Of a DNA stretch of 64,000 nucleotides, positions 8,985 to 58,335 are shown piece after piece. A program made the translations under genes and the position numbers. Source of the stretch: a virus; the IMG/VR virus record IMGVR_UViG_3300007735_000799, positions 55,267-119,266 of that record; one strand, 5' to 3'. The notes under the pieces are model-generated. The model did not search any database and had not been told where the DNA came from. It saw only the letters and a list, made by a program, of their open reading frames with translations. The first letter of the stretch is position 1. Every line of letters starts with the position of its first letter.

Positions 8985-9026
8985 TTCAGTAAAAGTTTGG
9001 ATAGTTCGGGTTTGATTCCACGAACT
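8985..9026 (-). repeat. Direct repeat copy 1 of a 42-base segment
   Basis: The stretch from TTTCAGTAAAAG to GATTCCACGAAC is identical to that at 9525-9566. It encodes the C terminus VESNPNYPNFY in both places. Confidence 0.85.
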
Positions 9027-9102
9027 GTACCCACTCAAACTTGGCAACGCCGTGGTAGTTGTCGTGGATACGCAACCAGTAGTGAGTGACTTCCCATCCC
9101 AT
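8986..9102 (-). CDS. Chimeric mini-gene (38 aa) from two duplicated gene ends
   Basis: The frame starts at 9102 as TAATG with the upstream stop. Codons 1-27 (MGWEVTHYWLRIHDNYHG...) copy the start of the gene at 8648; codons 27-38 (FVESNPNYPNFY, stop) copy the end of the gene at 9756-9526. The join keeps frame across both parts. It may be expressed, but could also be a by-product of recombination. Confidence 0.5.
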   Translation of the reverse strand: MGWEVTHYWLRIHDNYHGVAKFEWVQFVESNPNYPNFY

Positions 9103-9512
9103 TAGACGATCTCCACCATCCTGGTGTAGATGCTGTTGATGCGGAACGGACTGCTGGCGAAGTTCTTGAGAACGGCAGTCATCTCCGACTTGCTGCCCTC
9201 AAACCCGAAGTCACGCAGACCCGTCATCAGGCAAGTACCGCTTCCCATGAGCAGACGATCAATCGTCCCCTCACCCATGCGATCCTCCACCCAATCAATC
9301 GGATCGTTCATGTCTTGCGTGTTGTTCAGCGTGAAGGTGATGTTCACACGGTACTGCGGCTCGTGCGTGAAGATGTTGCTGCACAGAGCGTTGTTCACCT
9401 TGCGAGTGTTGATGTCAGCCGTGACAGCCTGTGGACTGCGTGGTTTGTTGGTGGGAACGGTGGTCTTGGCCTTGCGAGAACGATTGGTGTTGTTGCGAGT
9501 CTTGGTCTTCAT
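9102..9512 (-). CDS. Hypothetical basic protein (136 aa)
   Basis: Starts MKTKTRNNTNRSRKAKTT with a long basic, probably disordered N terminus, then a beta-rich domain (YRVNITFTLNNTQDMNDPID). No family recognised. Stop overlaps the chimeric mini-gene start. Confidence 0.55.
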   Translation of the reverse strand: MKTKTRNNTNRSRKAKTTVPTNKPRSPQAVTADINTRKVNNALCSNIFTHEPQYRVNITFTLNNTQDMNDPIDWVEDRMGEGTIDRLLMGSGTCLMTGLRDFGFEGSKSEMTAVLKNFASSPFRINSIYTRMVEIV

Positions 9513-18570: not shown

Positions 18571-19035
18571 TTAACGAGTATCAGTAGGAATATCGTTTGT
18601 TGCATTCTCTAAACATATTTTTAAATGTGCTTCAATCTCTAAAAGTAGACGGTTATGGGCGGAGTTGATACTCTGTACTGCTTCTTCATATTTTTTCCAA
18701 GCATCTTCTATGTCTTTATTATATTTTTCGTCACATTTCTCTATAGTCCAATTAGGATAATCAGTTATAGCCCAGATTGACTTACATTCAATATAGGTTG
18801 CATATGCTTTTATCAATCTCTGCTTAAGGAAATACGCCGCGTTTTTCAAAATTTCCTGACGACCGATTTCCAACTGATTTATGTCTCTGTTGGCCTTTTC
18901 AAAACATAGTTCAATACTCATTTTACGCTGCCACCACGGAACACGATCTATATCAGAGAGAACTATAGGCGCGTCGTAATCGACTCGTTGATTTAAGTAC
19001 GGATAATTGGTATTTGTGTTTGGTTTTATAGCCAT
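18571..19035 (-). CDS. Coiled-coil protein, NTNYPYLN family copy 1 (154 aa)
   Basis: Start at 19035 (MAIKPNTNTNYPYLNQ) rather than 19110, because the leading residues match its upstream neighbour exactly in layout. The body is long helices with spaced Cys residues (YIECKSI, EKCDEKYNKDIEDAWKKYEE). Paralog of the gene at 19532. Possibly a virion or adapter protein related in style to the Cys-rich proteins at 28-32 kb. Confidence 0.6.
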   Translation of the reverse strand: MAIKPNTNTNYPYLNQRVDYDAPIVLSDIDRVPWWQRKMSIELCFEKANRDINQLEIGRQEILKNAAYFLKQRLIKAYATYIECKSIWAITDYPNWTIEKCDEKYNKDIEDAWKKYEEAVQSINSAHNRLLLEIEAHLKICLENATNDIPTDTR

Positions 19036-19067
19036 TTGGTGTAATTTCCCGTACCGATATTCATCAG

Positions 19068-19532
19068 TTAAGCAGTAGGCCCTTGTGTTCCTTGTGCCTT
19101 CTTTAAACAAGAGTATAAAATTTTGTAATTCGACAGTTCCTCTAGAGCCGTCTGTTTTCCAATCGACTCTATTCCTCTTTCATATTGTTCTGCCGCCTCA
19201 TTTATTAGTTTATCTTTTTGTTTCTTACATTCGGCTATAGACGGTCGGTTAGGATTCGATAAAGGAAGTTGCCTGATTGTAATACACTCAAAATAGATTT
19301 TATATGCTTTTGAGATATCCTCCTTGTACAATGCTTTGTAGTATTTGATGCGGCGGTAATAGTTTGTTTGTGTCTCTAATTGTAAATTATAGAATGTATC
19401 AAAACACTTCTCTATCTCTTCTTTAAAGCGCGTATCAGTATCCTGATCCTGAGAACCAACATCTTCCAAGGCATCTTGATCTGATTCATTTAAGTACGGA
19501 TAATTGGTATTTCTTTCTGGTTTTATACCCAT
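19068..19532 (-). CDS. Coiled-coil protein, NTNYPYLN family copy 2 (154 aa)
   Basis: Starts MGIKPERNTNYPYLNESD. Same plan as its neighbour: short acidic linker, then helices with YFECITIRQLPLSNPNRP and AECKKQKDKLINEAAEQYE. A late promoter lies upstream at 19561-19568. Function unknown. Confidence 0.6.
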   Translation of the reverse strand: MGIKPERNTNYPYLNESDQDALEDVGSQDQDTDTRFKEEIEKCFDTFYNLQLETQTNYYRRIKYYKALYKEDISKAYKIYFECITIRQLPLSNPNRPSIAECKKQKDKLINEAAEQYERGIESIGKQTALEELSNYKILYSCLKKAQGTQGPTA

Positions 19533-19560
19533 TTGGTGGAATTTCCCTTCCCGTAAACAG

Positions 19561-27752: not shown

Positions 27753-28058
27753 TTACAAGTCACCGATCCAATCACTTACAGGAGGATGCGGTTCACACCA
27801 CGGTTCCCATCCTGCGGCAACAAGCGTCTGCCATACAAGTCTACCTGTCGCCACAGGCATGGTTGACACATCTAATGGTTTTAACTGATGGTGGGCCGAA
27901 TCACTTACTTTAAAAACAACAGTTTCTCGGCTTCGGTTTTCAATGGTAATCCAGTGCGGTGTCTGCGTCAAGGGTTCCGCTACAATGAAGCGCAAGCGGG
28001 TTCCGTCACCGCCGTGTTGTGGGTTTCGCCATAAACTGTACTCTTGATGCGGTCGCAT
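27753..28058 (-). CDS. Small AR-W family protein (101 aa)
   Basis: Start at 28058 (MRPHQEYSLWRNPQHGG), six bases after a -10 box. Beta-rich body (LRFIVAEPLTQTPHWITIEN), then VATGRLVWQTLVAAGWEPW, a member of the AR-W helix family. Function unknown. Confidence 0.6.
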   Translation of the reverse strand: MRPHQEYSLWRNPQHGGDGTRLRFIVAEPLTQTPHWITIENRSRETVVFKVSDSAHHQLKPLDVSTMPVATGRLVWQTLVAAGWEPWCEPHPPVSDWIGDL

Positions 28059-28064
28059 GGTAGT

Positions 28065-28093
28065 AGTATACTGTATAGACAAGCGAGCGTCAA
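28065..28093 (-). promoter_or_regulatory. Sigma70-like promoter, leaderless type
   Basis: TTGACG (28088-28093), 17 bases, TATACT (28065-28070); six bases to ATG at 28058. Confidence 0.75.
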
Positions 28094-28291: not shown

Positions 28292-28318
28292 AAAAAAGCC
28301 CCGATATCGGGGCTTTTT
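28292..28318. terminator. Bidirectional intrinsic terminator
   Basis: The palindrome GCCCCGATATCGGGGC (28298-28313) is flanked by six A and five T, so it can terminate in both directions. It ends the Cys-rich gene transcript. Confidence 0.85.
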
Positions 28319-28341: not shown

Positions 28342-29316
28342 TCAATACGGATACTTTACATTGGATTGTGTATCACTCTGTTCTAACACCCGTGCGCCTG
28401 ATTCTTTTGCCTTTAGGCATTCCTCGTAAACCCGTGTGCCTTCCACACAACACAATATCTGCTCACAAGGCTTAGTTGTAGGAGGTGAGTCTGGCCATAT
28501 TCCAGGTTCTTGTCCAGTTTTCCTTCGGTAGGTGTCGTCGTTATTCTTGGTTGCATTTCCCGCTTCAGTTTCAGCATTAGCAGCACAAATCGCGTAACGC
28601 AGCCCGCATTGTTCTGCGGTATTATCCCATCTTTCACAACTAATCTTATCCGCATAACATTTTGCTAAATCCTGCTTTAGTTTTTGTTCTATTCGGTTGT
28701 CTTCTTGTTCCCAGTCTGCAAAAGCCTTGTTTCTACAGTTTACGCTAGCACTAATCATACGGTTTATACATTCACGAAAATCTTGACCGGTCGGTGGTTT
28801 GTATATAACAACTTCAGAACCTGAATTTTGTGAGTTTGTTGATTGCCTTGCAATAAAATTTGAAATTACAGGAGTTCCTTTAATTCCGTAATCCCGAACA
28901 GGAGTGTAGGTTCCTGCATACTGTGCGGTATCAGATATACCACCAGTTCCTATAGGGCCATTTGTATCACAACAAATTTGATACATAGTATCACCTTCTT
29001 GTGTGCAATACTGTTCATCGCAACAAGTGAATGATGCTCGAAGTTCCGCAAGATCTGTGTTGTATCTATTTTCAAAAAACGCAAACATCTGATTTCTTGT
29101 GTCCGCGCACTGAGTTGCACAACCACAAGGATCACAACCACACGCTGCAACACACAAGTAATACTCATCACTAATTTGTTGTTGCCGAGCCACCCATTGC
29201 TCTGCTAGCATTCTTTCTTGAAACGCTAACATTTGAGCACGAATAGCAAAACAAGAAGTTTTTGCTCTTTGTTTTTGAATATTGCAGTAGTATTCCCATT
29301 TACATGTGGTTGACAT
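28342..29316 (-). CDS. Cys-rich protein (324 aa)
   Basis: Start at 29316 (MSTTCKWEYYCNIQKQRA) after an AAAGGAGC site. Over twenty Cys, clustered in the N-terminal 100 residues (CDPCGCATQCADTRN, CCDEQYCTQ) and in helices further on (AKCYADKISCERW, QCGLRYAICAAN), ending SNVKYPY. The spacing suggests metal-bound or disulfide-linked helical hairpins. No family recognised; in an operon with two other Cys-rich proteins and late-promoter control. Confidence 0.55.
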   Translation of the reverse strand: MSTTCKWEYYCNIQKQRAKTSCFAIRAQMLAFQERMLAEQWVARQQQISDEYYLCVAACGCDPCGCATQCADTRNQMFAFFENRYNTDLAELRASFTCCDEQYCTQEGDTMYQICCDTNGPIGTGGISDTAQYAGTYTPVRDYGIKGTPVISNFIARQSTNSQNSGSEVVIYKPPTGQDFRECINRMISASVNCRNKAFADWEQEDNRIEQKLKQDLAKCYADKISCERWDNTAEQCGLRYAICAANAETEAGNATKNNDDTYRRKTGQEPGIWPDSPPTTKPCEQILCCVEGTRVYEECLKAKESGARVLEQSDTQSNVKYPY

Positions 29317-29330
29317 TTTATGCTCCTTTA

Positions 29331-30335
29331 TTAAGAACTGTTTCTGCTTGGCCACGGCGGTAGACCTAGCCCTGCGGGAGGAGGCGCAGTGGGTAGTGAA
29401 TTTGTTGGTGGAACCGGATTGATTGGTGGAACCGGTTCGCCCCATGCGTCTCGAAGTTTTTTAAGAATCTCAATTAACAACTTTTGATCTATTTCAGGTG
29501 GGCCCAGCAGTGATTTTAAAAACTCTATAAGTGCTACAAGTCCACGATGATGCCCTGATAAAATTGTTAGTAAATTTATCAGTTCTTGAATAGCGTCGGT
29601 TGGACTTTTTTGTGCTTTTCGTATCAATTGTTCCATGTAACAGCGTTTTGGAGTTGAACTTTTACTGCAAGGTGGTGCAGTCAGCATTTTCTCAAAGTTT
29701 AATGAGTCGAAAAGCAAGTCTACACAACGATCACCAAATGGATCGTTTTTACAGTCCTTCCCCAAATCTTCAAGGTCTTTTAAAATGATTCTAAACGCTT
29801 CTGCCAAGCAACTAGCAAAATCTTTACATCTGTATTTGGTTTTTAAACACTCGGGACATGGTATTCGAGGAGGGCCCGAACAATCCAACATCATTCCACG
29901 ATTTTTTGGACGAATCCAAACCGAATTTAATTTTTCACACAATCCTTTTAAAAGATCGTCTTCGTTTGCAAATACACCAAGAAGATTACCGACAGAATCA
30001 CGACGAGTTTGTTCTATATCCGAAATATTACGATACGAATCAATGTAAGCGTAAGCATCAGATAAAGGCTTATACGGGTATTGAATGCTAGCAACAAGTT
30101 TACTTACAGTTGGCTCTTCAATACTTCTTTTTACAGGAGACATGCATTTTTCATACTGTTCAGCAAGTTTTTCCCATGCGTCTAATATTTTTTTACATTT
30201 AGGATCGTCTGAACGAGTGTTGGGATCATTGCAACACCCACAAACATCTTCGTCTTGACAGCAGTAGAAAAAGTACCGCAAGTCAGAAATTTGTTTTCTT
30301 AAATCATCACATTGTCTAACTCGAATGTACGGCAA
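29331..30335 (-). CDS. Cys-rich protein (334 aa)
   Basis: TTG start at 30335 after AGGGGAG. Opens MPYIRVRQCDDLRKQ, then FFYCCQDEDVCGCCND. A middle helical region with CLEKL-like repeats (CPECLKTKYRCKDFASCLAE), and a Pro-rich tail ending AGLGLPPWPSRNSS. Late promoter upstream. Possibly an extended virion protein with metal-binding knots; function unknown. Confidence 0.55.
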   Translation of the reverse strand: MPYIRVRQCDDLRKQISDLRYFFYCCQDEDVCGCCNDPNTRSDDPKCKKILDAWEKLAEQYEKCMSPVKRSIEEPTVSKLVASIQYPYKPLSDAYAYIDSYRNISDIEQTRRDSVGNLLGVFANEDDLLKGLCEKLNSVWIRPKNRGMMLDCSGPPRIPCPECLKTKYRCKDFASCLAEAFRIILKDLEDLGKDCKNDPFGDRCVDLLFDSLNFEKMLTAPPCSKSSTPKRCYMEQLIRKAQKSPTDAIQELINLLTILSGHHRGLVALIEFLKSLLGPPEIDQKLLIEILKKLRDAWGEPVPPINPVPPTNSLPTAPPPAGLGLPPWPSRNSS

Positions 30336-31346: not shown

Positions 31347-32054
31347 TTATGCTTCCCAACCCGAAACACCCTCTCGTTGACTTATCCTCTTTACAGGATC
31401 TATTATAACTTCAGGAAATTTTATTGGAACTGGAGGAACAACTACTCCACCACCAGGTCTAATTACAGGAGGTAAAGGGGGTTTTCCATTTTGTTTACAG
31501 GCATCTTCGGCTTTCTTTCTTTTATCACAGCAATTACAAGGAATTGGTGGTGTGTTAAAGGGAGGATAATTTGTTCCAACACTTTCAGCCCATTCTTTAT
31601 TAGCAGCATCTATTTCTTTTTGATATTCTTCATAACCTTTATTGTATATGTTATTGTATATGTTGTTACATTCTTGACAAGCACGACTTTGCAGGCTACT
31701 CCCTTGATTTCCGCAACTTTTTGTTTTATATGTACAATACGGAAATTTTTCTACATCTTCAGCACAATCGTTTGAACTACACAGAGGATTACCAGGAATT
31801 CCAGGAGCGTAAACCCCGCGTCCAGATTCGCGGATGCATAGTGGTGCTTCTTGGCAGTCTATTCTAGCCTTAATTGCTTCGTGCACCACTCCAGGAACTA
31901 AAAGTTCATTGCTGTTTGGAGGCGGCTTAAATTTTCCAAACAGTTTTTCTTGAGCGAGTTTTATTCTCGCATCTCTTTTTGCTCCAGCCGCGCTTAGACA
32001 TTCCTCGTATATTTTGTCTGCATAGGATTTACAATCAATTGAGTCGAGTGGCAT
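31347..32054 (-). CDS. Cys-rich protein (235 aa)
   Basis: Opens MPLDSIDCKSYADKIYEECL, then pairs of Cys around LCIRESGR, CSSNDCAED and CTYKTKSCGNQG, a QECNNIYNNIYNKGYEEY helix and PIPCNCCDKRK. Pro/Val-rich C terminus. Third member of the Cys-rich group; directly upstream is a late promoter. Function unknown. Confidence 0.55.
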   Translation of the reverse strand: MPLDSIDCKSYADKIYEECLSAAGAKRDARIKLAQEKLFGKFKPPPNSNELLVPGVVHEAIKARIDCQEAPLCIRESGRGVYAPGIPGNPLCSSNDCAEDVEKFPYCTYKTKSCGNQGSSLQSRACQECNNIYNNIYNKGYEEYQKEIDAANKEWAESVGTNYPPFNTPPIPCNCCDKRKKAEDACKQNGKPPLPPVIRPGGGVVVPPVPIKFPEVIIDPVKRISQREGVSGWEA

Positions 32055-32113: not shown

Positions 32114-33709
32114 TTAAACACCGATTGCTCCACCACTACTTATGATACCATCTATAACTCCAGGCAAACTGCTAAGAGAGGAAGCAAATGCTTCGTAAAT
32201 ATCTCCAAAATTACAAGGAATAAGTTCGGGATCGGGATGCCAACCACAAGCACATCTGTGAGAGTGTACAAAAACACCATACGAAGTCATAACTTGACAT
32301 GTATTAGCGTGTTTATTAGCGGGTGTATTAGCGGGTGTATCCCCCGTACAACCCGGACCACAAACTGTCCAAGTATTGATAGCGTATGATGATGGAGGAT
32401 TCACATCGCCGTTAACTAAACCACATTTTGTACAATCGGGTCCTGGTGCACTTCCTCCGTAACCGCTTCTTGGCGGGCAATTTTTCTTAAATCCATTTTG
32501 TCCAGGCGTTGCTGCAACATTAGTATTCAGGTAATTTTCATTTATATTATCGTAATAAGTTGGAATATACTTGTTGCCCATTAAAAGAGTTAATCCAACT
32601 CCTTGAACGCAAGAACCACTACCATCAGAACCTGATGAAGAATTTCCACTGCAACCATCTACATCTTTGTCACAACAGCCACTTTTTATTGCGTCTTCCA
32701 TATCGTTATAGTACTGCTCGGCGGCTGTATATCTTTCTATTTGCTCGGCATTACGAACAGTTGTTGTCCAATTTTCACATTTTTGATTTAAACATACAAC
32801 TAAATTCGCTAGTGATCCTAAAAGGATAGCGAGAGCAACATAGGGAACTGCTCTACCAGTTGCTAGTAAAAGTGTTCTTAAATTACCAATTGTGGAACCC
32901 ACTAAACCAACAAAAATAACACCAAAGGTTTTAAGTGCTCCTCTTATTCCTCCAGAGAATTTTGAGAAATTTGCTCTAATGCTTTCTTTGATGTTTTTTA
33001 ATTCGTGTTGAACCAAAGTGCTAAAAGAAGTTATGTTTCTTTTGGGTAGTGTTAACAGATATCTTAGTTTGTTTTCAATTTCTCCTTTTAGAAGCCTTAA
33101 CGCATCTTTTTCTGGATTTGTAAGTTTTCTGTTTTTCGTAGGATGCCAACCACTAAACAACATTTCTTCTATTACTTTAAGTTTTTCTCTTTGACCTAGT
33201 ATTTGCCTATCAAGATTCTCATTAAAAAATATATTTTCCAGCATTTCCTTTGTTGTAAGAGCCTTAATATTGTTTATTCTTTCAACAATCCAAGTGCTAG
33301 CACTTCCAAGAGCAACAGATAAATCTATTAGGTAAGTAAAAATAAGAGCAATACCAAATATTTTCATCAAAAAAGAAATCCAGTCTTCCAGACAGTCTAA
33401 TGCACCATATATAAAGTCTTGTGCCGCTTTTGTAATTTTACTGTTTACGGCTCCTAATCTTTTTTCAAAGTTACAATAAATTTCATTAAAAGTATCCGCA
33501 CAGTCTTTGCTTATGGTGTCGGCATTTTCTCCGATAATTGTAGTAACAGAATCTAAACTTTTACCCACATAAAGAGGAAGTTTGTTTATTGGCATGGAAT
33601 AAGGATATTCCGCGCCTTTAAAATATACAGTAGACAACAACATTCCACTTTCATAGTTTAATCCTGTCGGAATGACATTGGTATATAAAAATTGTTCAAT
33701 TCGTCCCAT
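32114..33709 (-). CDS. Membrane-segment paralog, copy 1 (531 aa)
   Basis: Start at 33709 (MGRIEQFLYTN), matching the N termini of the three paralogs; the longer frame from 33799 overlaps the upstream gene. Order: conserved head IPTGLNYESGMLLSTVYF, variable helices, hydrophobic stretch near ALAILLGSLANLVVC, GCCDKDVDG, the conserved cassette QGVGLTLLMGNKYIPTYYDN, then a Cys-rich tail with CGWHPDP. No family recognised. A possible membrane- or channel-forming virion protein. Confidence 0.6.
   Translation of the reverse strand: MGRIEQFLYTNVIPTGLNYESGMLLSTVYFKGAEYPYSMPINKLPLYVGKSLDSVTTIIGENADTISKDCADTFNEIYCNFEKRLGAVNSKITKAAQDFIYGALDCLEDWISFLMKIFGIALIFTYLIDLSVALGSASTWIVERINNIKALTTKEMLENIFFNENLDRQILGQREKLKVIEEMLFSGWHPTKNRKLTNPEKDALRLLKGEIENKLRYLLTLPKRNITSFSTLVQHELKNIKESIRANFSKFSGGIRGALKTFGVIFVGLVGSTIGNLRTLLLATGRAVPYVALAILLGSLANLVVCLNQKCENWTTTVRNAEQIERYTAAEQYYNDMEDAIKSGCCDKDVDGCSGNSSSGSDGSGSCVQGVGLTLLMGNKYIPTYYDNINENYLNTNVAATPGQNGFKKNCPPRSGYGGSAPGPDCTKCGLVNGDVNPPSSYAINTWTVCGPGCTGDTPANTPANKHANTCQVMTSYGVFVHSHRCACGWHPDPELIPCNFGDIYEAFASSLSSLPGVIDGIISSGGAIGV
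32523..32620 (-). repeat. 98-base conserved cassette, copy 1
   Basis: Encodes QGVGLTLLMGNKYIPTYYDN and the following NENYLNTN. Nearly identical at DNA level to 34156-34253, 35810-35907 and 37406-37503, while flanking parts of the four genes have diverged. Confidence 0.9.
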
Positions 33710-33731
33710 ATGAGTGTCCCGTTTCTTATGT

Positions 33732-35477
33732 TTACATTCCGCCATAGCCCACAGATCCTGGTCCGTTTCGGGATAACCAGTCACCAATATAGGATGCAAA
33801 ATCTGTCATTCCTTGTTTAAACAACGAAAGACCATCTGAAAGAAGGTTTCCTATTTCGTATGGTGCTGGAGGGTGTTCTACATGTCCGAAGTAGCCTCCT
33901 TCGTTAGCCCAACCCGTTTTATCGGGGTATCCACAAGCGCATTCAGGCGACGGCACTGTTAAAGACCCAAAACCCAGAGAAATTTGTTTAGTACACCCAT
34001 TCCAAGGATTGTTGTTTGGGTATGCTCGGAACTCACCACTGTCGTCAGGATCTATAATTTTTCCGTATTTAGTACAATCAGGGCCACCAATGCTTCCTGG
34101 TTTTGGAGGACAATTTGGTTTCCAACCGTTTACTCCAGGCGTTGCTGCAACATTAGTATTCAGGTAATTTTTATTTATATTATCGTAATAAGTTGGAATA
34201 TACTTGTTGCCCATTAAAAGAGTTAATCCAACTCCTTGAACGCAAGAACCACTGCCGCTGCCGAAACCACTGCCACCACCACTGCCGCCATTGCAGTCTC
34301 CGCTACCTTTATCACAGCAGCCACTTTTTATCAGATCATTGATTTCTTTTTCGTATCTAACTTCAGCACAAAATATACTATCAGGGTAATTTTTGCATGC
34401 GTTTTCTCTATCTGGTCCTAAATAATTTCCTCTTCCAACCGCTTGATCTATAGCAGATTGCCAACGACGATTGGCCTTGTCGATATTGTCTACTAGTTTT
34501 TGATAAGAGTTTAAAAGTGCTTGGACTAGTAGATACATCAAATAAACATCTAGCACATTGATAAGTAGTTTAATAGTCAACTTTAATACTAGCCAAAAGA
34601 CTTGAAGAACTGTCTTAAATCCTGATAGAATTTTTGTTATTATATTTATACTTACACTGCCTTTTCTTGCCTTTTTAACCCAATCTTTAGATAACTGTGC
34701 TGCGGAAGGTGAACTGTTTCCCCAAGTGGCAACTGCGGGAAATCTTGAAACAATATCTCTTATGAGAGAGTTAAGAATTGCTTGTCGTAAACGAAGTCTG
34801 TTTAATTCATCAAGTAATTGTGATCTTTTTGCATCGGTCATGTTAGTTCTAACAGACCGCCAATCAGGAACAGTACCTCCAGTACCACCAAGCAGGAGTA
34901 TTATTTCACTCATACGCTTTTGATTGTTTTTTAATTCTGTCGTATATGCTACCCATTCTGCTTTCATTTGACTATACTGCTGATACAAGCCAGTTGAGAT
35001 GTCTGTACGAACTACAACACCAGCGGCAACAAGAGCAGCATACTCTTCAGGAGTATTGAATGCTTCGGCAAATTTATCAGTCAAAATTGCTGGTATGTTA
35101 AAAACAGTATATAATGCAGTTGCTTCCCCCAACAGACTACCGTATTCATACAGACTATCAATAATATCATCATACCAGTTGGAATATGCGTTCCTAATTT
35201 GTATGTTAGAGGTTGCTAATGATACTTCTAATTTACGAAAGACATTATGGAAGTTATTCAAACATTCTTGAGATACATCGTCAGGATTGCCAGTCAGCAT
35301 TTTTGTTAAAGAGTCTTTTGATTTACCAACATATAAAGGTAAATTGTTGGGAAGAATTAAGTATGGATACTCAGAGCCCTCAGTTTGTACCAAAGACCTT
35401 AAAATATCAGTTTGATAATTTAATCCTGTTGGTATGTTGTTTGTGTATAAAAAATGTTCAATTCTGTTAGATTGCAT
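33732..35477 (-). CDS. Membrane-segment paralog, copy 2 (581 aa)
   Basis: Opens MQSNRIEHFLYTNNIPTG. Variable helical middle, a long hydrophobic segment (KLTIKLLINVLDVYLMYLL), GCCDKGSGDCNGGSG, the conserved cassette and NCPPKPGS, ending with the CACGY motif and a Gly-rich tail. Same plan as the other three copies. Confidence 0.6.
   Translation of the reverse strand: MQSNRIEHFLYTNNIPTGLNYQTDILRSLVQTEGSEYPYLILPNNLPLYVGKSKDSLTKMLTGNPDDVSQECLNNFHNVFRKLEVSLATSNIQIRNAYSNWYDDIIDSLYEYGSLLGEATALYTVFNIPAILTDKFAEAFNTPEEYAALVAAGVVVRTDISTGLYQQYSQMKAEWVAYTTELKNNQKRMSEIILLLGGTGGTVPDWRSVRTNMTDAKRSQLLDELNRLRLRQAILNSLIRDIVSRFPAVATWGNSSPSAAQLSKDWVKKARKGSVSINIITKILSGFKTVLQVFWLVLKLTIKLLINVLDVYLMYLLVQALLNSYQKLVDNIDKANRRWQSAIDQAVGRGNYLGPDRENACKNYPDSIFCAEVRYEKEINDLIKSGCCDKGSGDCNGGSGGGSGFGSGSGSCVQGVGLTLLMGNKYIPTYYDNINKNYLNTNVAATPGVNGWKPNCPPKPGSIGGPDCTKYGKIIDPDDSGEFRAYPNNNPWNGCTKQISLGFGSLTVPSPECACGYPDKTGWANEGGYFGHVEHPPAPYEIGNLLSDGLSLFKQGMTDFASYIGDWLSRNGPGSVGYGGM
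34156..34253 (-). repeat. 98-base conserved cassette, copy 2
   Basis: One difference from copy 1 (CATTTA changed to TATTTA). Confidence 0.9.
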
Positions 35478-35487
35478 TTAAATTCCG

Positions 35488-36975
35488 TTATCTATCACCT
35501 ATTGCTCCACCTGTGTCTAAAACTCCGTCTATAATACCAGGAATACTTCTAACCAAAGTTAAAATCCCACCAAGTGCTGAATCAAGAATATCCTTTAAAT
35601 CACATGGATCTAATGATGGTTCCTTTTTCCATCCACACGCACAGGTATGATTAGGAATCGGAATTCCTAATGAAGAAGTTATCGGTTTATCCTTACACTT
35701 TTCCCATTTATTATCATCAGGAGTTCTAGTTAATCCACAGGTTAGACAATTAAATTGTGGAGGACAATTTGGTTTCCAACCGTTTACTCCAGGCGTTGCT
35801 TCAACACTAGTATTCAAGTAATTTTCATTTATATTATCGTAATAAGTTGGAATATACTTGTTGCCCATTAAAAGAGTTAATCCAACTCCTTGAATACCAG
35901 AACCACTGCCACTACCGTTATCACAGCAACCTGATTTAAATATTGCTTCCATAGTGTCATAGTATAGGATTGCTGCGTTAGATCTGTCTATCTGTTCAAG
36001 ATCTCGAATTTTTGTTAATCTTTTTTCACAAGCGGCTGTAAAACATTGGTACAGTTTTGTATTAGCATATATCAATACTGATAAAGCGACCCAAGGAAGT
36101 AATCGTGCTAATCCCGCCGCCAAAGTACCAAGTAATGTTTTAATTTTTGAAAAAAATGTACTAATAAATACTTTCGCTTTGTTTAAAACTCCGGAAACTC
36201 CTGAAGTGCCACTTTTTGTGTACTGTTTAACTAGTCTTTCAATTTCTTGTGCTTCTCGCTCTAATTCGGCAGTTATATAGTTTAGCGGACGAAGTTGTTG
36301 TCTCAAATTTCGTAATTCAACGATCAATTCTTCTCTAAACTTAACGAGAACCCGGCGAACAAGCGGTCCTTCGGGCTTATGACCGTTACGACCAACCAAC
36401 TGACCTGTAATTTCTTCAATAGTGTCCTCTAGATATTCGATTCGATTTTTAAGTGCATCATTGAACTGTTGATTTGCTGCGGTTTGCTTTCCAATTGCTT
36501 CTTTATGTTTTGCTATTCTTGCCGTCAGCCAGGCTGGAATAGTAGCAGTAATTCCTGATTCTAATCCAGATTCAAGGATATATTCAAATGCTTCTGATAA
36601 TAAATTTATTCCTAGAAGTGCGCCATAAGTACGAGCCCAAGTTAAAAGACAATTCATAATATCGTCAACCCAGTTTTCATCCGCTTTATCAATTGAATAT
36701 TGTATTGATTCTAAATTTTTTTCAAACCCACAATAATTTTGATTAAATTTTTCTTGGCATTCTGTGGATATAGAGTCACTATCAATACCACTCATATTTT
36801 TTGTAAGAGAGTCTCTACTTTTTCCAACATAATTTGGCAGATTAAAAATGTCTATATGAGGATATTCCGCGCCTTTAAAATATACAGTAGACAACAACAT
36901 TCCACTTTCATAGTTTAATCCTGTGGGAATAGCATTTTGATATAAAAATAACTGAATTCTATTATTGATTATCAT
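35488..36975 (-). CDS. Membrane-segment paralog, copy 3 (495 aa)
   Basis: Opens MIINNRIQLFLYQNAIPTG. Hydrophobic stretch near RLLPWVALSVLIYANTKLY, GCCDNGSGSGSG, conserved cassette, CACGWKKEP tail. The head is almost identical in DNA to copy 1 (for example ATATTCCGCGCC region). Its AGGAGGA ribosome site comes from a 31-base duplication of the upstream gene's end. Confidence 0.6.
   Translation of the reverse strand: MIINNRIQLFLYQNAIPTGLNYESGMLLSTVYFKGAEYPHIDIFNLPNYVGKSRDSLTKNMSGIDSDSISTECQEKFNQNYCGFEKNLESIQYSIDKADENWVDDIMNCLLTWARTYGALLGINLLSEAFEYILESGLESGITATIPAWLTARIAKHKEAIGKQTAANQQFNDALKNRIEYLEDTIEEITGQLVGRNGHKPEGPLVRRVLVKFREELIVELRNLRQQLRPLNYITAELEREAQEIERLVKQYTKSGTSGVSGVLNKAKVFISTFFSKIKTLLGTLAAGLARLLPWVALSVLIYANTKLYQCFTAACEKRLTKIRDLEQIDRSNAAILYYDTMEAIFKSGCCDNGSGSGSGIQGVGLTLLMGNKYIPTYYDNINENYLNTSVEATPGVNGWKPNCPPQFNCLTCGLTRTPDDNKWEKCKDKPITSSLGIPIPNHTCACGWKKEPSLDPCDLKDILDSALGGILTLVRSIPGIIDGVLDTGGAIGDR
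35810..35907 (-). repeat. 98-base conserved cassette, copy 3
   Basis: A few differences, mainly at the two ends (GAACGCAAG replaced by GAATACCAG). Confidence 0.9.
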
Positions 36976-36981
36976 GGTTGA

Positions 36982-37012
36982 TCCTCCTGCAACTACTATA
37001 TCTGGAATTATT
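36982..37012 (-). repeat. 31-base tandem duplication, unit A (carries a ribosome site)
   Basis: One mismatch with 37021-37051, 39 bases apart. This copy sits in the gap and supplies AGGAGGA to the gene starting at 36975. Confidence 0.85.
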
Positions 37013-37014
37013 CA

Positions 37015-38754
37015 TTATTCTCCTCCTGTAACTACTATATCTGGAATTATTGTCCTGACATAATCAATAAGCCCTTGGTGAAGACTTTCAAATCCTTGAT
37101 AAAAAGTTGATACAAAATCGCAAGGACTAACGGCTGGCTTGTTTGGACGAGGCCAACCACAGGCACATGTGTGGTTTTGAACAGATACTACCGGACTATT
37201 TGGATCCGTTGTATTTCCCACAATAGTTACCACAGGATCAGTACAAATGCTCCATGTATTTTTATCATAAACCGTCCCCGACGAGGAGTTCGTTTCGTCT
37301 GCTACTTTGGTTTTACATCTAACGCAATTAGCAGAATAAGGTGAACCAGGCATAGGCGGGCAATTTGGCTTAAATTCGTATTTTCCTATCACCGATTCTT
37401 CATTCGTATTCAGGTAATTTTCATTTATATTATCGTAATAAGTTGGAATATACTTGTTGCCCATTAAAAGAGTTAATCCAACTCCTTGAACGCAAGAACC
37501 ACTGCCGCTACCGCTGTTTGATCCACCATTGCATCCTCCGCTACCTTTATCACAGCAGCCACTATTTAATATATTTTGAAGACTCTCATAATATTCCTTA
37601 GCGGCTTCTGCTCTTTGATTCTCTGCCGAACGAACCGTTCTTTCCCATTTTGCACATGCTTGTGATATTTGTTGTTTTAGATTTCCCAACCCTGCAATTA
37701 ATGCTGATACCGCATAAATTCCAGCAGCAACAATAATAACACTCAATGCTATCAAAGTTAATTTTAATGCTATAATAAACGCTCCAACTGCTGCTCCAAG
37801 TAAAGAAAAAAGTTTAAGCCATTCCTCCGCTGTTGGAAGATAAACAGACCCTCGTCTCCAAAAATTTTCTCCGGCAAAATAAGTGTCGCTCTTCCTAGCC
37901 ATCAGTGTTTTAATAAGAAGATTTATAGTATTTCTAAAATCTGCCGTAATCGACCCTATTGTTCCAGGACCACCGAACAACTGTGGATTATTTTTTACTA
38001 TACTTAAAAGTTCAGCAGCGGTTCCTCTTATAGTATCTCTCATTATATTCAGTGTTGCTCCAAGTCTGTTTGCTTGAGCGCGCAATATTTTAAGTTCTTT
38101 ATCAATATCAAAGAGGACACTTTGCTGGCTCATCTGTCTTCGAACTGCTTCCAATTGAGCAATTCTCTTTCTTGTTTTCATAAATTCAGCGTTTGTCTTT
38201 TGAAATTGTATATCTAAGTTCAACAAGTCTTCCAAATATTCTTGGGCTTGTTGAAATATTGGATCATCTCCTTGAAAACCACCCGCAAATCCTACTGCGA
38301 GTATATAATTCGGATCAGTTTTAATATCAAAACCGTCTTCGCCGACTGGAGTAGTTCCAGCAAGAGAATTTATAAAATTTAAATATAATTCTGGAAGTGG
38401 AAATATATCTCTTAAAATGCCAACCCAATCTACCAATGCACCGCTAATATCCTTAACAAATGTATCTCTTGCGTCTATGATTTTTTTGTTTATACCAGCC
38501 AATTTATATTCAAAATTGCAATAAGTGTTTTCGAAGTCATTCAAACATGCTTGAGATACCTCGTCAGGATTGCTAGTCAGCATTTGTGTTAAAGAATCTT
38601 TTGATTTACCAACATAACTAGGCAGTTCAGGTGGTAAAAATGGGTACTCTGCTCCCTCGTGATACACCAAAGACCGCAACATCGCTGTTTCATAATTTAA
38701 CCCTTTTGGGTGATTATTGGTGTAAATAAAGTGTTGAATTCTGTTAAATTGCAT
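37015..38754 (-). CDS. Membrane-segment paralog, copy 4 (579 aa)
   Basis: Opens MQFNRIQHFIYTNNHPKG after a GGGGGAC site. Has the strongest hydrophobic region (AAVGAFIIALKLTLIAL and a second segment after it), GCCDKGSGGCNGGSN, conserved cassette, CACGWPRPN tail. First gene of the four, behind a late promoter. Confidence 0.6.
   Translation of the reverse strand: MQFNRIQHFIYTNNHPKGLNYETAMLRSLVYHEGAEYPFLPPELPSYVGKSKDSLTQMLTSNPDEVSQACLNDFENTYCNFEYKLAGINKKIIDARDTFVKDISGALVDWVGILRDIFPLPELYLNFINSLAGTTPVGEDGFDIKTDPNYILAVGFAGGFQGDDPIFQQAQEYLEDLLNLDIQFQKTNAEFMKTRKRIAQLEAVRRQMSQQSVLFDIDKELKILRAQANRLGATLNIMRDTIRGTAAELLSIVKNNPQLFGGPGTIGSITADFRNTINLLIKTLMARKSDTYFAGENFWRRGSVYLPTAEEWLKLFSLLGAAVGAFIIALKLTLIALSVIIVAAGIYAVSALIAGLGNLKQQISQACAKWERTVRSAENQRAEAAKEYYESLQNILNSGCCDKGSGGCNGGSNSGSGSGSCVQGVGLTLLMGNKYIPTYYDNINENYLNTNEESVIGKYEFKPNCPPMPGSPYSANCVRCKTKVADETNSSSGTVYDKNTWSICTDPVVTIVGNTTDPNSPVVSVQNHTCACGWPRPNKPAVSPCDFVSTFYQGFESLHQGLIDYVRTIIPDIVVTGGE
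37021..37051 (-). repeat. 31-base tandem duplication, unit B (coding)
   Basis: The original copy, encoding the C terminus IPDIVVTGGE of the gene at 37015. Confidence 0.85.
37406..37503 (-). repeat. 98-base conserved cassette, copy 4
   Basis: Identical to copy 1 over almost the whole length. Confidence 0.9.
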
Positions 38755-38789: not shown

Positions 38790-38797
38790 ATATTTAG
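38790..38797 (-). promoter_or_regulatory. T4-type late promoter
   Basis: CTAAATAT on the minus strand, 36 bases before the first membrane-segment paralog. Confidence 0.6.
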
Positions 38798-39938: not shown

Positions 39939-39946
39939 ATATTTAG
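39939..39946 (-). promoter_or_regulatory. T4-type late promoter
   Basis: CTAAATAT on the minus strand, overlapping the stop of the upstream gene, 22 bases before the ATG at 39916. Confidence 0.55.
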
Positions 39947-40905
39947 GTGTTTAAGAGTGCTTCCATCGGTATGCCACCTGGAGCATCCGACCCGAAATCG
40001 TATAGGATATAGGTGGCTGTTATAGGTTGAGCGGATATCCGAACTGTTTCTCGCTCACGAGTATTTTTAGTAGACAGTTTCAGAGTCAACTTGATTTTGT
40101 CGCTAGCATCAGGATTAAACAAGAATTCTTTATCGTTGGTGCGATACTCTATGGTTACAGGCAGCACGGTATCTGTCACGGTTGCTCCGGCTCCTGATTT
40201 AATTCCTCGTTTCAACAACTCTACAAACTTGGCTCTTTCTACAGGTTCGTCGCCAGGATACTGTGGTTTATCAAACGGCAAGGCTCCTAGTTTAAGGGCT
40301 TTTTTAATTTGACTTTCCAAGTCTTCAGAACGCATTTTAGCAAACTCTAAAGCCTTTTGATAGTTGTAACTCCAAGACTGTAGGGGATACTGACTTTTGT
40401 ATGGAGCAGTGCAAACCCAAGATTTGCCTTGTTGTTTCCACTTACCTAACTTGTTTAGTTCTGCCAACGACATGGCTTTGCCACGGTATATCAGTTGTCC
40501 TGCTTTAGGCAGCATCCACGATGATTTGTTTTGACAGTTAATCAAGTCACGGAAAAACGGGTACACTTGCTGCTTCTGCTCAGGAGTGGCAGTCATAAGA
40601 CGATCACCAAAAAAGTCTTCTAGGTTTCGTCTAACATTATTGGTGTAATGCAGCAACTGTAGGATTTGAAAATTGTCTATTTGCTTCAACAGTTCATCGG
40701 TATTACCAAACTCAAATAGTCTTGGTGCTCCACGAACTTCACCACCAAAACCTTTCAGCAAGGCTAGAGCATCGTCTAGTGTTAAAGAAGCAAACACGCA
40801 CGGCGAAATAGGCGCACCTGATTTCAAGTATGGAATAACCTTTTCCAACACTCGGTTGGTTTGTGCAACAGACGCGGCTTCGTTGAATACTTGAAAGTCT
40901 TTCAT
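39943..40905 (-). CDS. Alt-like mono-ADP-ribosyltransferase, copy 5
   Basis: 320 residues. Leader MKDFQVFNEAAS, cleavage after FNE. R141 in LIYRGKAMS, S177 in PLQSWSYNY, E284-x-E286 in RERETVRIS. The N-terminal 100 residues differ from the other copies. Probably packaged and injected. Confidence 0.7.
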   Translation of the reverse strand: MKDFQVFNEAASVAQTNRVLEKVIPYLKSGAPISPCVFASLTLDDALALLKGFGGEVRGAPRLFEFGNTDELLKQIDNFQILQLLHYTNNVRRNLEDFFGDRLMTATPEQKQQVYPFFRDLINCQNKSSWMLPKAGQLIYRGKAMSLAELNKLGKWKQQGKSWVCTAPYKSQYPLQSWSYNYQKALEFAKMRSEDLESQIKKALKLGALPFDKPQYPGDEPVERAKFVELLKRGIKSGAGATVTDTVLPVTIEYRTNDKEFLFNPDASDKIKLTLKLSTKNTRERETVRISAQPITATYILYDFGSDAPGGIPMEALLNT

Positions 40906-41396
40906 TTCTTTACTATGGTAAACAATTCTCTGGTGTTTGGAAAGTTAATGTTAACTGTAGGCATTTCTTTTCTGCCTTCTAGTTTGTATCCGTGTGCTTC
41001 AGCGTATCGTTTAATCAAAGCCATGTAGAGTTTAACGCGAGAACCACTGGTATACGACAAGGTTGTAGCATTTATCTCACTCTTGGCTGCAATGAAACTT
41101 ATATCTTGCGGCTTATACTTTTGTAGGAATCGTTTGAATCCGTCTAATACTGAAGCAAATACTTGAGCGGCTTTTCCTTCGCCTGTTAAAGCGGTTGAAC
41201 CGTTTCGTGAAAAAGTGCAATCCCATGAATCAGGTGTAGGAGTTGATAGTCGGGCAAAATACACAACAACAAACTGCTCTTTGCCGTTTTCCATCCACTT
41301 GTAAGAATACTTGGCTTCATCCGTTCCTTCTCTTTGCAAATGGATGGGAAACGGTTTGTCAAACAGTTCAGTAAGATGTGTCTTGAATGATTTCAC
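40902..41396 (-). CDS. Head-packaged protein, LFDKPFP family (164 aa)
   Basis: GTG start at 41396 (VKSFKTHLTE), in a GTGA overlap, preferred over ATG at 41402. Cleavage after LTE, then LFDKPFPIHL. The chain ends with helices VKLYMALIKRYAEAH and strands VNINFPNTRELF. Paralog of the gene at 17768. Function unknown. Confidence 0.6.
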   Translation of the reverse strand: MKSFKTHLTELFDKPFPIHLQREGTDEAKYSYKWMENGKEQFVVVYFARLSTPTPDSWDCTFSRNGSTALTGEGKAAQVFASVLDGFKRFLQKYKPQDISFIAAKSEINATTLSYTSGSRVKLYMALIKRYAEAHGYKLEGRKEMPTVNINFPNTRELFTIVKK

Positions 41397-42301
41397 AGCC
41401 AACTTTGTTTCTTTAATAGGGTTTTGAATTTAGGATGATTTGCAATCTGTTTAGCAGCAGTTGTTCCTAGTATTGTAGCCAATCGCTTTTCCGCATATTC
41501 TGTCACCAGTCTGATTTGTTCTTTTTCTGAATCTATGTTTTCTAGTTTTTTCAGATAGTCTCTGCTCATAGTCTGCATTTCTTGTTCAACAAAATTGTCT
41601 AATTGCACATACATCTTTACTGGCGTTGGAACATTGCTTACTCGTATAATTTCATCTTCGCCGTATGAACCTAAAGTGTTGGAAATCTCGGGCGACAAAA
41701 AAGTGTTTTGTTTAGTTACATTGGTTTCCATAATCACGCCTATGCCACCAGCACTTGAACCGTATTGGTCGGATGTGAAACTCATAGACACTTCAAAATC
41801 TTTAGCCCATGATTGTGCCGCGTATTTGCTTTTGTAAACTCCGTTGGCTACAGCAAAAAATGCATCTTTCTTTTCCACAACCTCGCCTGTGAATTTCAAG
41901 CCTTTAATCCAATCGCGGGACTTGAACAAACCACGATAAACTTTGCCTGAGTAACCTGCCCATGCTGCTTTACCAGAACACGATGCCATCTTTACAATCT
42001 TAGGCATGAACGGTGCTTTTGCCCCACCTTGTGATTCAAACCAAGAATTCATTGCAAAAATGTATTCTATCAATTGCTTGTATGCTGCTTGTTTGTCGGG
42101 AGTAAAAGTTTGATTTAAGGCTTTTGCCATTAACTGATATAGTTTATTGATACTTGTTTTACGAGCATCATAATATCCCTCTGTGCCGTTACCAACAGCA
42201 GTATACAAATCTATAAGACGGTCTGGTGACGAGTCCGACATTAGTTCACAAATGGTGGGAACGCCAGCGGCTTCGGTAAGATGTGTCTTGAATGATTTCA
42301 C
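41393..42301 (-). CDS. Alt-like mono-ADP-ribosyltransferase, copy 6
   Basis: 302 residues, GTG start at 42301. Leader VKSFKTHLTEA, then GVPTICELMSDS, matching the second half of the fusion protein at 13121. R123 in KVYRGLF, S164 in AAQSWAKDF, E215-x-E217 in GEDEIIRVSN. Closest to the ART half of the fusion. Confidence 0.7.
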   Translation of the reverse strand: MKSFKTHLTEAAGVPTICELMSDSSPDRLIDLYTAVGNGTEGYYDARKTSINKLYQLMAKALNQTFTPDKQAAYKQLIEYIFAMNSWFESQGGAKAPFMPKIVKMASCSGKAAWAGYSGKVYRGLFKSRDWIKGLKFTGEVVEKKDAFFAVANGVYKSKYAAQSWAKDFEVSMSFTSDQYGSSAGGIGVIMETNVTKQNTFLSPEISNTLGSYGEDEIIRVSNVPTPVKMYVQLDNFVEQEMQTMSRDYLKKLENIDSEKEQIRLVTEYAEKRLATILGTTAAKQIANHPKFKTLLKKQSWL

Positions 42302-51437: not shown

Positions 51438-51581
51438 ATGAGCATAAGCGAACAAGAACTACAGACTATTATTCAGGAATTGAAAAACTACCGAGCAAAT
51501 GTTGCTGCTAGCATGATGCGTATACGGGAAATTGAACAATTCTTGGAAAGCCGACTGCCACAGAAACAGCAACAGTCTTAA
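51438..51581 (+). CDS. Small coiled-coil protein (47 aa)
   Basis: MSISEQELQTIIQELKNYRA, then SMMRIREIEQFLESRLPQKQ, a heptad-like coil. Its start lies four bases after a plus-strand late octamer. The stop overlaps the gp46 stop by four bases (tail to tail). Function unknown. Confidence 0.5.
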   Translation: MSISEQELQTIIQELKNYRANVAASMMRIREIEQFLESRLPQKQQQS

Positions 51582-53296
51582 GCAATCTTACTGAAGTTAT
51601 TCTTCTTAGTGAAGGTAAGATGGCTGGTGAACTTGGTTTCTAGCAATTCCTTTGGTTTATGTGAGATCACGAACGCATTGGTTCCGTCTCCAATAGCCCG
51701 AAGAATCTCAAGGAATGATTCCACCGAAGCATCATCAAGGCTACCGTCTAGAACCTCATCCATAATCAACAGATTGGTGTCTAGGCTGTTCTTCAGGGTA
51801 GCGATGGTTCGCCACGCAAACAGCAGGGCCAAATCAATCTTACGCTTCTCGCCTTCCGAGAATGAAGAGTATGTAAACACATCACGATGTCGGCTTTTGA
51901 TGGTTTCGTTGAACTCTTCATCCAAGTTGAATGATACAAACAATCCCATCTGATTCAGGTATCGGTTGATGATTTGATTGATGACGGGAATGTAATGCTT
52001 GATGATTCTGCTCTTGATACCACTATCCTTTAGTAGAGCAGAAGCAATACCAAAATAATATTGATCGTCCACCATCTCTTTTCGGGTGTCTTCAAGTTCT
52101 TGTAATCCTTCTTGCAGTTTAGTCAGTTCTTTTTCGTCTGCATCGCCTTGTGCCTTCTTTGCGGTTTCAAGTTCAACCAAACGACTCTCAAGTTTCTTAC
52201 GATTTGTAATTGTGGTTTGTAGACTTGCCGATGCTTGCGAACGCTTCACTTCAAGCGAACGAATTTCACCAAGCACAGAGTGAATCTGCTCTACTCGTTC
52301 GTTGGCTTTGCCCATAGAATCTTCAATATCGGTGATAGCCTCTTGAAGTTCCTTGCCCTTCTTGGTTTTAGTTTCCACAACAGCAGACTTAAACTGCGGA
52401 TCAATCTTCTGTGAGCAGGTTGGACACGAATCGTTCTTGTTGTAAAAATCTATCTCGTTAACAATAGTCTTTACTTTACCTTTTAGTTGACGCTGAATAG
52501 TAGATAGATCGGTGATACTTTTACTGACGGTATCAGTATCTTCAATCAAAGCGTGTTTGTTGTTGATGTCTTGATCTAGTTTTTCAATTGCTTGAATTAA
52601 AATCTCTTCATCTTCGTTGCACTTCAATACATCTGCACGACATTGATCCGCTGCAATATCTGTATTCTTGCCTCTATTCTCAAGATACTTCTGATTCAGA
52701 CGAACCTTTTCTCGTTCTACATTTACATCTGCATCAGTAACCGCCAACTCTTCCTTGAGTTTAGACAGTTTGCCTTTCAGCAATCCGTTCATTACAGAGA
52801 AGATGTTGATATCAAGAATGGATTCCACAACTGCTCTGCGCTCGGCTGCGGTTAAACGCATGAACGGAACATAGTTGGCTGAACCTAAGATTACCACCTG
52901 ACAGAACGCTTTGTATGACATACGAAGAACTTGTTCTTCAAACTGCTTTTGGTAATCTTTGCTCTTGGCGTCCTGATCTACAAGTTTGCCGTTCTTGTAA
53001 ATCTCAAATACAGCAGGTTCTAGTCCACGCTTAATTAAGTAGACATCAGAGCCAACTTCCATATCAAGTTCAACAAGGCAATCCTTTTCGTTTACCGAAT
53101 TCACGAGTTGCGGCTTGTTGATGTTGCGATAAGGTTTACCAAAAAGAGCAAAGGTAAGAGCATCCAAAAGGGTACTCTTACCTGCTCCGTTTTCACCTGA
53201 TATTAAAGTTGTATTTGAGGCACACAGGTCTACTTTCGTAGGATACTGTCCTGTAGAAAGGAAGTTAGACCAGCGTATCTGCTTAAATTTAATCAT
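51578..53296 (-). CDS. 46: Recombination endonuclease subunit gp46 (SbcC/Rad50-like)
   Basis: 572 residues. Walker A GENGAGKS (34-41), signature SFSEGEKRKIDLALL, Walker B LLIMDEVLDGS and the zinc-hook DSCPTCSQKI in the long coiled coil. With gp47 it forms the Mre11/Rad50-type nuclease that processes DNA ends for recombination-dependent replication. Here gp47 is not adjacent but about 4 kb to the right. Confidence 0.93.
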   Translation of the reverse strand: MIKFKQIRWSNFLSTGQYPTKVDLCASNTTLISGENGAGKSTLLDALTFALFGKPYRNINKPQLVNSVNEKDCLVELDMEVGSDVYLIKRGLEPAVFEIYKNGKLVDQDAKSKDYQKQFEEQVLRMSYKAFCQVVILGSANYVPFMRLTAAERRAVVESILDINIFSVMNGLLKGKLSKLKEELAVTDADVNVEREKVRLNQKYLENRGKNTDIAADQCRADVLKCNEDEEILIQAIEKLDQDINNKHALIEDTDTVSKSITDLSTIQRQLKGKVKTIVNEIDFYNKNDSCPTCSQKIDPQFKSAVVETKTKKGKELQEAITDIEDSMGKANERVEQIHSVLGEIRSLEVKRSQASASLQTTITNRKKLESRLVELETAKKAQGDADEKELTKLQEGLQELEDTRKEMVDDQYYFGIASALLKDSGIKSRIIKHYIPVINQIINRYLNQMGLFVSFNLDEEFNETIKSRHRDVFTYSSFSEGEKRKIDLALLFAWRTIATLKNSLDTNLLIMDEVLDGSLDDASVESFLEILRAIGDGTNAFVISHKPKELLETKFTSHLTFTKKNNFSKIA

Positions 53297-57282: not shown

Positions 57283-58335
57283 TTAGATAAAAAGTGATTC
57301 CATGTAAAGGTCACGAATGATAGACTTGAGTTTGACGGAATTCGTCACCTCTAAATTATCAATCTCCTGATTGATGAGAGAAAGTGTATCTTTACTCACA
57401 TCTACTGTTGTTGATAGTTCCGTTTCGCTGCCTTTGTCTTCAAGAACAGTTACTCCGTGTGCTCCAACGCTATTAATTGCATCCATGAACAGATCAAACA
57501 TGGCGGGATTGCGTTTACGATTAACGCGAACTCGCACAAAAGTTTCCTTGAATCTACTCATGTCGGGCATCGCCTTGGTGTAATCTGTAACAGCATCATC
57601 GTAACCCAATTCACCAAAAATGCGAAGTGGATTTTCAATATACTGTATAGAACGATCTTCCGTATCAAACACATGAAACCCCTTTGGTTCATTCAAATCG
57701 CCAAAGGTAATCTGATACGGAGTACCCAAGTAATGCACATTTCCTTTAGTATGCTTGCAATGAAAGTGCCCGCTGTATACTGCTTGAAACCTTTCAAGCG
57801 GAGCAGGATCCATTCCGTTAGTAAACTGTGTTCCACGAAGAACTTCATATCCTGTCAATTCAAGATGCCCCAAAACAATAGGAGCGTCTGTTGTGGCAAT
57901 CAGTTTTCGTGATGCCTCTTCATTACTGCGATTTATCCACGGCAGAAGAAGAAACTTTGTTCCCCCTAAAGTCAATTCGGTTGGATCTTTATGAACAACA
58001 ATTCCCTGCTTGTCCATACCACCAAAAAGTTCTTCAATTGAATTAATACTGCTGGTATTGCGGAAATAGGTATCGTGATTACCAAGTAGAATGTTTGCAC
58101 GAATTCCCTTTTCAAGCAATTTATTAATAAATCTCTCTCGGGTTTCGTGTAGTGTGGCAAAATTTACAAATTTACGCCTATCCATAAGATCACCAAGATG
58201 TAAAATTTCGGTGATACCTTCTCGTTCAAGATATGGGAAAAATACCTCATCTAAAAAACGGAAGAAGTAGTGCAGAAAAATTGGAGAATCGTTTCTAGCA
58301 CCAAAATGAGTATCACAAAGGATGGCTACTCGCAT
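57283..58335 (-). CDS. 47: Recombination endonuclease subunit gp47 (SbcD/Mre11-like)
   Basis: 350 residues with the Mre11 phosphoesterase motifs: CDTHFGARND, LHLGDLMDRRK, LLGNHDTY, LGHLELTG and YSGHFHCKHT. Partner of gp46. The promoter is of the leaderless type. Confidence 0.93.
   Translation of the reverse strand: MRVAILCDTHFGARNDSPIFLHYFFRFLDEVFFPYLEREGITEILHLGDLMDRRKFVNFATLHETRERFINKLLEKGIRANILLGNHDTYFRNTSSINSIEELFGGMDKQGIVVHKDPTELTLGGTKFLLLPWINRSNEEASRKLIATTDAPIVLGHLELTGYEVLRGTQFTNGMDPAPLERFQAVYSGHFHCKHTKGNVHYLGTPYQITFGDLNEPKGFHVFDTEDRSIQYIENPLRIFGELGYDDAVTDYTKAMPDMSRFKETFVRVRVNRKRNPAMFDLFMDAINSVGAHGVTVLEDKGSETELSTTVDVSKDTLSLINQEIDNLEVTNSVKLKSIIRDLYMESLFI

Follow-up and report, generated by a model that had tools for sequence, protein, structure and literature searches.

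Probable concerted evolution of a short protein motif within a tandem gene array of an uncultured T4-like phage

The DNA analysed here is a window of 64,000 nt at the end of the record of an uncultured virus (IMGVR_UViG_3300007735_000799, 119,266 bases). The DNA polymerase encoded by this contig is ~50% identical to the cyanomyovirus gp43, and T4-type replication and recombination genes are also present, i.e. those for a helicase, a primase, a clamp, a clamp loader, UvsX and gp46/gp47-like proteins; the phage is therefore T4-like. A search for an S77 prohead protease, run without a working positive control, returned no match. On its minus strand, the window carries four large paralogous genes in head-to-tail orientation, in the order A, B, C and D, and all four open reading frames (ORFs) listed in an initial annotation are indeed there. 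Paralog A (37015-38754, 579 aa) is the first gene of the array, and is followed by B (35488-36975, 495 aa), C (33732-35477, 581 aa) and D (32114-33709, 531 aa when counted from the ATG at 33709). This ATG is most likely the start of D, a TTG at 33799 being a possible alternative.

The proteins share a common domain order, which consists of a conserved N-terminus of ~100 aa, a poorly aligning helical centre, a hydrophobic segment, a helix that leads to a GCC motif, a Gly/Ser linker, the sequence QGVGLTLLMGNKYIPTYYDN and a Cys-rich C-terminus. A hydrophobic segment lies ahead of the GCC motif in every full-length member of the family, namely A-D and the copies tA, tB and E on the related contigs described below, in keeping with the membrane helices that had been proposed as possible; the strongest such segment of A spans aa 326-344 (37723-37779, minus strand), with a mean hydropathy of 2.67. 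In the alignment, the Cys-rich C-terminal region of A (37015-37374, minus strand) has the form NCPP..C..C..W..C..CACGW..PC. Two Cys motifs had been ascribed to the proteins in general, and each holds for a part of them: GCCDKG occurs in A and C, but is GCCDN in B and GCCDKD in D, whereas CACGW occurs in A, B and D, but is CACGY in C.

No significant relative of the paralogs was found in PHROGs, Pfam, NCBIfam and PDB sequences or by tblastn of a phage collection, and a scan of bacterial and archaeal genomes revealed no family member; the early remark that no known family came to mind therefore holds across all these libraries. Scans of viral contigs with the family returned relatives on two contigs alone, termed T and U, and two queries with neighbouring genes led to the same contigs. 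As to structure, prediction of which had been advised with a membrane pore or a sheath in mind, two AlphaFold models of low confidence (mean pLDDT 58 and 51) have an all-helical predicted core, but a Foldseek search with the better model gave no match under E=0.001 in PDB or BFVD.

Each of the four genes carries on the minus strand a homogenised block of 98 bases, located at 37406-37503 in A, where its protein part is QGVGLTLLMGNKYIPTYYDNINENYLNT, at 35810-35907 in B, at 34156-34253 in C and at 32523-32620 in D. Over the 98 bases A and D have no mismatch, C differs from A and from D at one position, B differs from A and from D at four, and B and C differ at five, whereas the DNA identity among the paralogs beyond the block is 50-56%, so that the near-identical block amid diverged genes, the central claim of the initial annotation, is confirmed. 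A core of 60 bases is identical in all four paralogs (37423-37482, 35827-35886, 34173-34232 and 32540-32599), while its expectation in shuffled sequences is 0, and the exact runs within the block are 68-98 nt long depending on the pair, compared with permutation maxima of 24-30. Synonymous positions are alike too: at identical amino acids, the six window pairs use the same codon in 92-100% of the cases within the block (25/27, 25/26, 26/27, 25/26, 26/27 and 26/26) versus 46-60% elsewhere, with Fisher p values of 5e-5 to 3e-7 for pairs that are not independent of each other. Furthermore, 21 columns of the motif are invariant in all eight aligned sequences, E included, and the motif is thus truly conserved as protein.

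The homolog set comprises three contigs in all, since the search for homologs of the block recovered orthologs of A, B and D, as well as an additional copy, on the IMG/VR contigs T (L005) and U (L006/L017), both of which are incomplete. Contig T encodes tA, a complete ortholog of A with 57% amino acid identity (L005:10001-11755), and tB, an ortholog of B (L005:11758-13005), and it ends inside the block, so that the downstream part of tB is missing. Contig U, on the other hand, begins inside the D block and lacks the upstream part of the ortholog uD, of which the C-terminal 154 aa are encoded at the start of L006; past uD it has the same downstream genes as the window, and ~28 kb away from the array it carries one more, detached copy, E, the fifth of the family. 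An ortholog of C was not recovered. Both contigs thus break inside the block, and the 102-nt overlap of tB and uD is identical, as is expected because the repeat is too long for the assembler; a DNA search for an overlap between T and U, run without a positive control, gave no match. The presence of orthologs of A, B and D on these contigs implies that the array genes predate the split of the lineages, and orthologs can therefore be compared with paralogs.

Between orthologs, the codon match within the block is 18/23 for A, 20/24 for B and 20/24 for D, and elsewhere in these genes it is 71%, 83% and 72%, respectively. The two ranges (78-83% and 71-83%) are similar, and thus silent sites do not change more slowly in the block than in the other parts of these genes. 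The synonymous divergence between lineages (dS) is 0.36-0.58 for A, B and D, and 0.51 and 0.56 for two well-conserved neighbours. The mean DNA identity of the block is 0.97 among paralogs versus 0.87 among orthologs. Moreover, tA, tB and uD all have the synonymous states GGA>GGT, CTT>CTA, TTA>TTG and TAT>TAC, while the window copies (wA-wD) have none of the four. The block of copy E matches those of the array copies at 9-14 of 20-21 codons, which is similar to the rest of the E gene. In the tree of the block, the window copies cluster together, i.e. by lineage, whereas the trees of the flanks group by ortholog, with wA joined to tA, wB to tB (100%) and wD to uD (98%). Accordingly, AU tests find the block incompatible with the ortholog tree (p=8e-6) and both flanks incompatible with the lineage tree (p=4e-9 and 9e-75).

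The block is thus homogenised within a lineage and differs between lineages at synonymous sites, while the flanks stay orthologous, and the copy outside the array has a diverged block. The ortholog codons, the shared synonymous states, the tree conflict and copy E together indicate that the identity results from exchange among the array copies, and not from selection on the DNA. We therefore consider it highly probable that the block encodes the most conserved motif in the proteins of this orphan four-gene tandem family, and that recombination among the copies of the array keeps its DNA nearly identical. Of the causes initially put forward, gene conversion is the one that the related contigs support, and, judged from sequence comparison, the process appears to be concerted evolution by gene conversion or an equivalent recombination over a protein-conserved motif. 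A conversion event as such was not observed, and a similar trace would be expected from unequal crossing-over, or from copying out of a relative during co-infection.

The central part of the proteins has evolved rapidly. The Ka/Ks analysis that had been recommended gave whole-gene dN/dS values between lineages of 0.59 for A and 0.70 for B, versus 0.15 and 0.23 for the REC-like and CobS-like neighbours, and the centre of A and B has a dN of 0.66-1.03. However, fast evolution is not unique to the array, because the neighbouring gene at 31347 has a dN/dS of 0.75, as high as A and B, and the C-terminal part of D has one of 0.32.

Other traces of recombination were found in the family. The N-terminal parts of B and D share a second tract (36856-36959 in B and 33599-33702 in D, both minus strand), which is 89% identical over 104 nt, 66 of them an exact run, in agreement with the claim that some 100 N-terminal bases are near-identical in two of the four genes. 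Directly past the block, further exact tracts extend for 43 nt between B and C and for 38 nt between C and D, and the A/B junction contains a 31-nt tandem duplication with 97% identity (36982-37051, minus strand; copies at 36982-37012 and 37021-37051). On contig U, an exact 122-nt repeat of E's own 5' end lies behind E and then stops (L017:6189-6310 and 7884-8005). This repeat is direct evidence of recent duplication or recombination in the A-E family, and it resembles what a lost tandem copy would leave behind, or the start of a new one.

The phage itself would probably supply the recombination proteins for the exchange, namely UvsX and those of the gp46/47 type. Genes for gp46 (SbcC/Rad50)-like and gp47 (SbcD/Mre11)-like subunits of a recombination nuclease are located on the minus strand at 51578-53296 (PHROG 77, E=5e-169) and 57283-58335 (PHROG 100, E=8e-93), respectively. 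Recombination proteins would need a stretch of near-identity, which the protein constraint on the motif may supply, and every exchange would then reset the near-identity of this stretch.

Several repeats elsewhere in the window were noted as well. A second tandem pair of paralogs (18571-19110 and 19068-19532) has a near-identical 5' block (18988-19056 and 19485-19553, 88% over 69 nt), which encodes MxIKPxxNTNYPYLN, with the rest diverged, and possibly reflects the same process as the array. The 5' part of a small gene at 8316-8669 is repeated upstream as a 5' stub (8565-8667 and 9019-9121, 87% over 103 nt), and small genes related to it recur in contig U (L017, 10-11 kb). In addition, self-BLAST revealed a perfect 26-nt palindrome at 28293-28318, in the intergenic region upstream of the gene 27753-28082.

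Among the alternatives to exchange confined to the motif, the one that survives best, though we regard it as unlikely, is modular shuffling, in which the blocks would act as anchors for swapping the variable upstream and downstream halves among the four genes. The exact tracts described above end differently from pair to pair, both past the block and at the N-terminus, and the central region is fast-evolving, as such swapping would lead one to expect; however, both flanks of A and the recoverable flanks of B and D still group with their orthologs, and therefore swaps of whole halves are not seen. Recent wholesale shuffling across the block, as had been suggested initially, is likewise not shown, because the sequences on both sides of the block retain their ortholog relationships. 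It is similarly doubtful that the array works as a diversity machine, in which a protein-constrained motif would double as a recombination anchor for four late surface or virion proteins; also with little probability, sequence would be exchanged in such an array while the central coils and Cys-rich loops diversify against the host. If true, the array would be a phage counterpart of cassette-based antigenic variation.

That the block is a DNA or RNA element, e.g. a recombination or packaging site or a regulatory or structured RNA, with its nucleotide sequence under selection, had been among the initial proposals, and the near-perfect identity within one genome, synonymous sites included, speaks for it. 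The ortholog comparison largely refutes it, as codons are identical between lineages just as often inside the block as in the remaining gene, and copy E is diverged at synonymous sites. The suggested check for RNA structure agrees with this, since the coding strand does not fold better than shuffled sequences (z = 0.47, 0.34, -0.88 and 0.47), and the block has no Rfam match; the antisense fold of one copy gave z=-1.97, in one of five tests and uncorrected. We thus give this reading a very low probability. The same holds for an assembly artefact, in which the metagenome assembler would have homogenised or chimerically joined short repeats. Although all the sequences come from uncultured contigs, and both T and U end inside the block, the four window copies share a single contig, where their flanks are unique, their frames are intact and they differ at single positions within the 98 bases, the flanks keep their ortholog relations to independent contigs, and the repeat pattern recurs with tA and tB inside another contig. 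Least probable of all is that selection on amino acids and codons alone keeps the four blocks alike without exchange, for although the motif is conserved as protein at its 21 invariant columns, such selection would not be expected to fix lineage-specific synonymous changes in every array copy, the occurrence of which refutes it, and it leaves both the conflict between block and flank trees and the other codons of E unexplained.

Concerted evolution by gene conversion, the preferred reading, is a general phenomenon, known for instance from the duplicated rRNA or tuf genes of bacteria. The array resembles these systems in that a tract is closer among paralogs than among orthologs, with lineage-specific synonymous changes and ortholog-like flanks; it is unlike them in that the tract is restricted to ~100 nt that encode one motif, and in that it belongs to tandem phage genes that diverge rapidly. 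In the library of papers searched, no earlier case of concerted evolution or gene conversion between paralogs of a phage turned up, although this does not prove that there is none. Cassette-based antigenic variation, such as that of pilE/pilS and vlsE, also involves tandem or dispersed paralogs, constant blocks beside variable parts and recombination between copies; here, however, all four array copies look like full genes, and it is the constant block that is homogenised, while exchange of variable parts is not seen. Diversity-generating retroelements likewise combine constant and variable regions in phage proteins, but the block is the constant part, and adenine-targeted variation is absent. 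The reverse transcriptase family PF00078 was unmatched on the contig, which may be incomplete, while a control search matched 3 of 14 genomes, and this candidate was rejected.

As regards the function of the paralogs, our reading is based on a promoter motif, the neighbouring genes and composition. A CTAAATA sequence, which is the late promoter described for the T4-like phage Aeh1 (PMC1524935), lies upstream of A (38791-38797, minus strand) and also upstream of tA. Of the 22 minus-strand copies of this motif on the contig, 16 are located within 80 b upstream of an ORF (p=9e-13), and one copy precedes a collagen-like tail fibre gene. Two neighbouring genes upstream of the array (41393-42301 and 40902-41402) share the start (M)KSFKTHLTE, in which L occupies position 8 and E position 10. 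In the capsid targeting sequence (CTS) of T4, these two positions are important for processing (PMC9026906). Such a start is absent from the paralogs, as A-C begin with M(Q/I)xNRIxxFxYxN and D begins with MGRIEQFLYTN; the array is thus like the internal proteins with a CTS in T4-like phages in having neighbours with a CTS-like start and in that both loci lie in a T4-like genome (PMC9026906), but unlike them in the N-termini of the four paralogs, none of which is of this kind. The long helices and hydrophobic segments of the paralogs recall tail tape measure proteins (PHROG 1535 and others), but a tape measure would not be expected to occur in four similar copies that each end in a Cys-rich region; the best E value of 0.0045, obtained with single members against 38880 families, is not significant and reflects a composition-type match to long helices, and this candidate was also rejected.

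Some further features of the neighbourhood and of the related contigs may be recorded here. A 30-nt stretch with 97% identity, common to 41367-41396 and 42272-42301, encodes the (M)KSFKTHLTE start, and similar CTS-like starts occur in L005, L007 and L017. The genes 39943-40905 and 41393-42301 have Y-R-G, S-W-(S/A) and E-x-E-like motifs in addition to a CTS-like start, which suggests that they encode ADP-ribosyltransferases resembling T4 Alt; no family or PDB sequence match was found in support of these candidates. The array is followed by three genes for Cys-rich proteins without a family match (28342-29445, 29331-30335 and 31347-32054), the order of which is the same in contig U. On contig T, the products of L005:5378-5932 and 4870-5385 have C-termini that look PEP-CTERM-like by eye (VPAPAS..hydrophobic..RRRR) and were not recognised by NCBIfam; these ends might point to a planctomycete-like host.

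The likeliest reading is that the paralogs are late proteins of the virion or of the infected-cell envelope, with about an even chance that they are virion proteins. The paralogs may all dock to one partner through the N-terminus and the LLMGNKYIPTYYDN motif, the variable parts being the central helices and the Cys-rich loops. On the other hand, with appreciably lower probability, the paralogs could be pore or exclusion proteins that insert into membranes of the host envelope and not parts of the virion, which would be compatible with concerted evolution of the block. The hydrophobic segment in each full-length copy and the all-helical predicted core fit such a role, as does the appearance of the alpha-pore-forming proteins AhlC (E 0.22) and ClyA (E 0.34) among the many weak Foldseek matches of the pLDDT 58 model. 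However, at such model confidence long helices match anything, in line with the lack of a PDB or BFVD match at the threshold given above, and the late promoter and the CTS-like neighbours are just as compatible with a place in the virion.

Concerted evolution, a known process, accounts for the striking identity at silent sites, and its setting here is unusual, i.e. a short motif shared by tandem, fast-evolving genes of an orphan phage family. The array is a clear phage example of concerted evolution limited to one motif. With the orthologs, recombination could be told apart from DNA-level constraint; either can conserve silent sites, and the two are easily mistaken for each other. The array illustrates the way in which genes of a viral family can evolve in concert, and adds a protein family without a relative in the searched libraries, in a late-promoter-linked T4-like locus beside probable packaged proteins. 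If the variable parts of these proteins touch the host, the family would provide a lead on how related phage proteins may co-assemble while each of them diverges.
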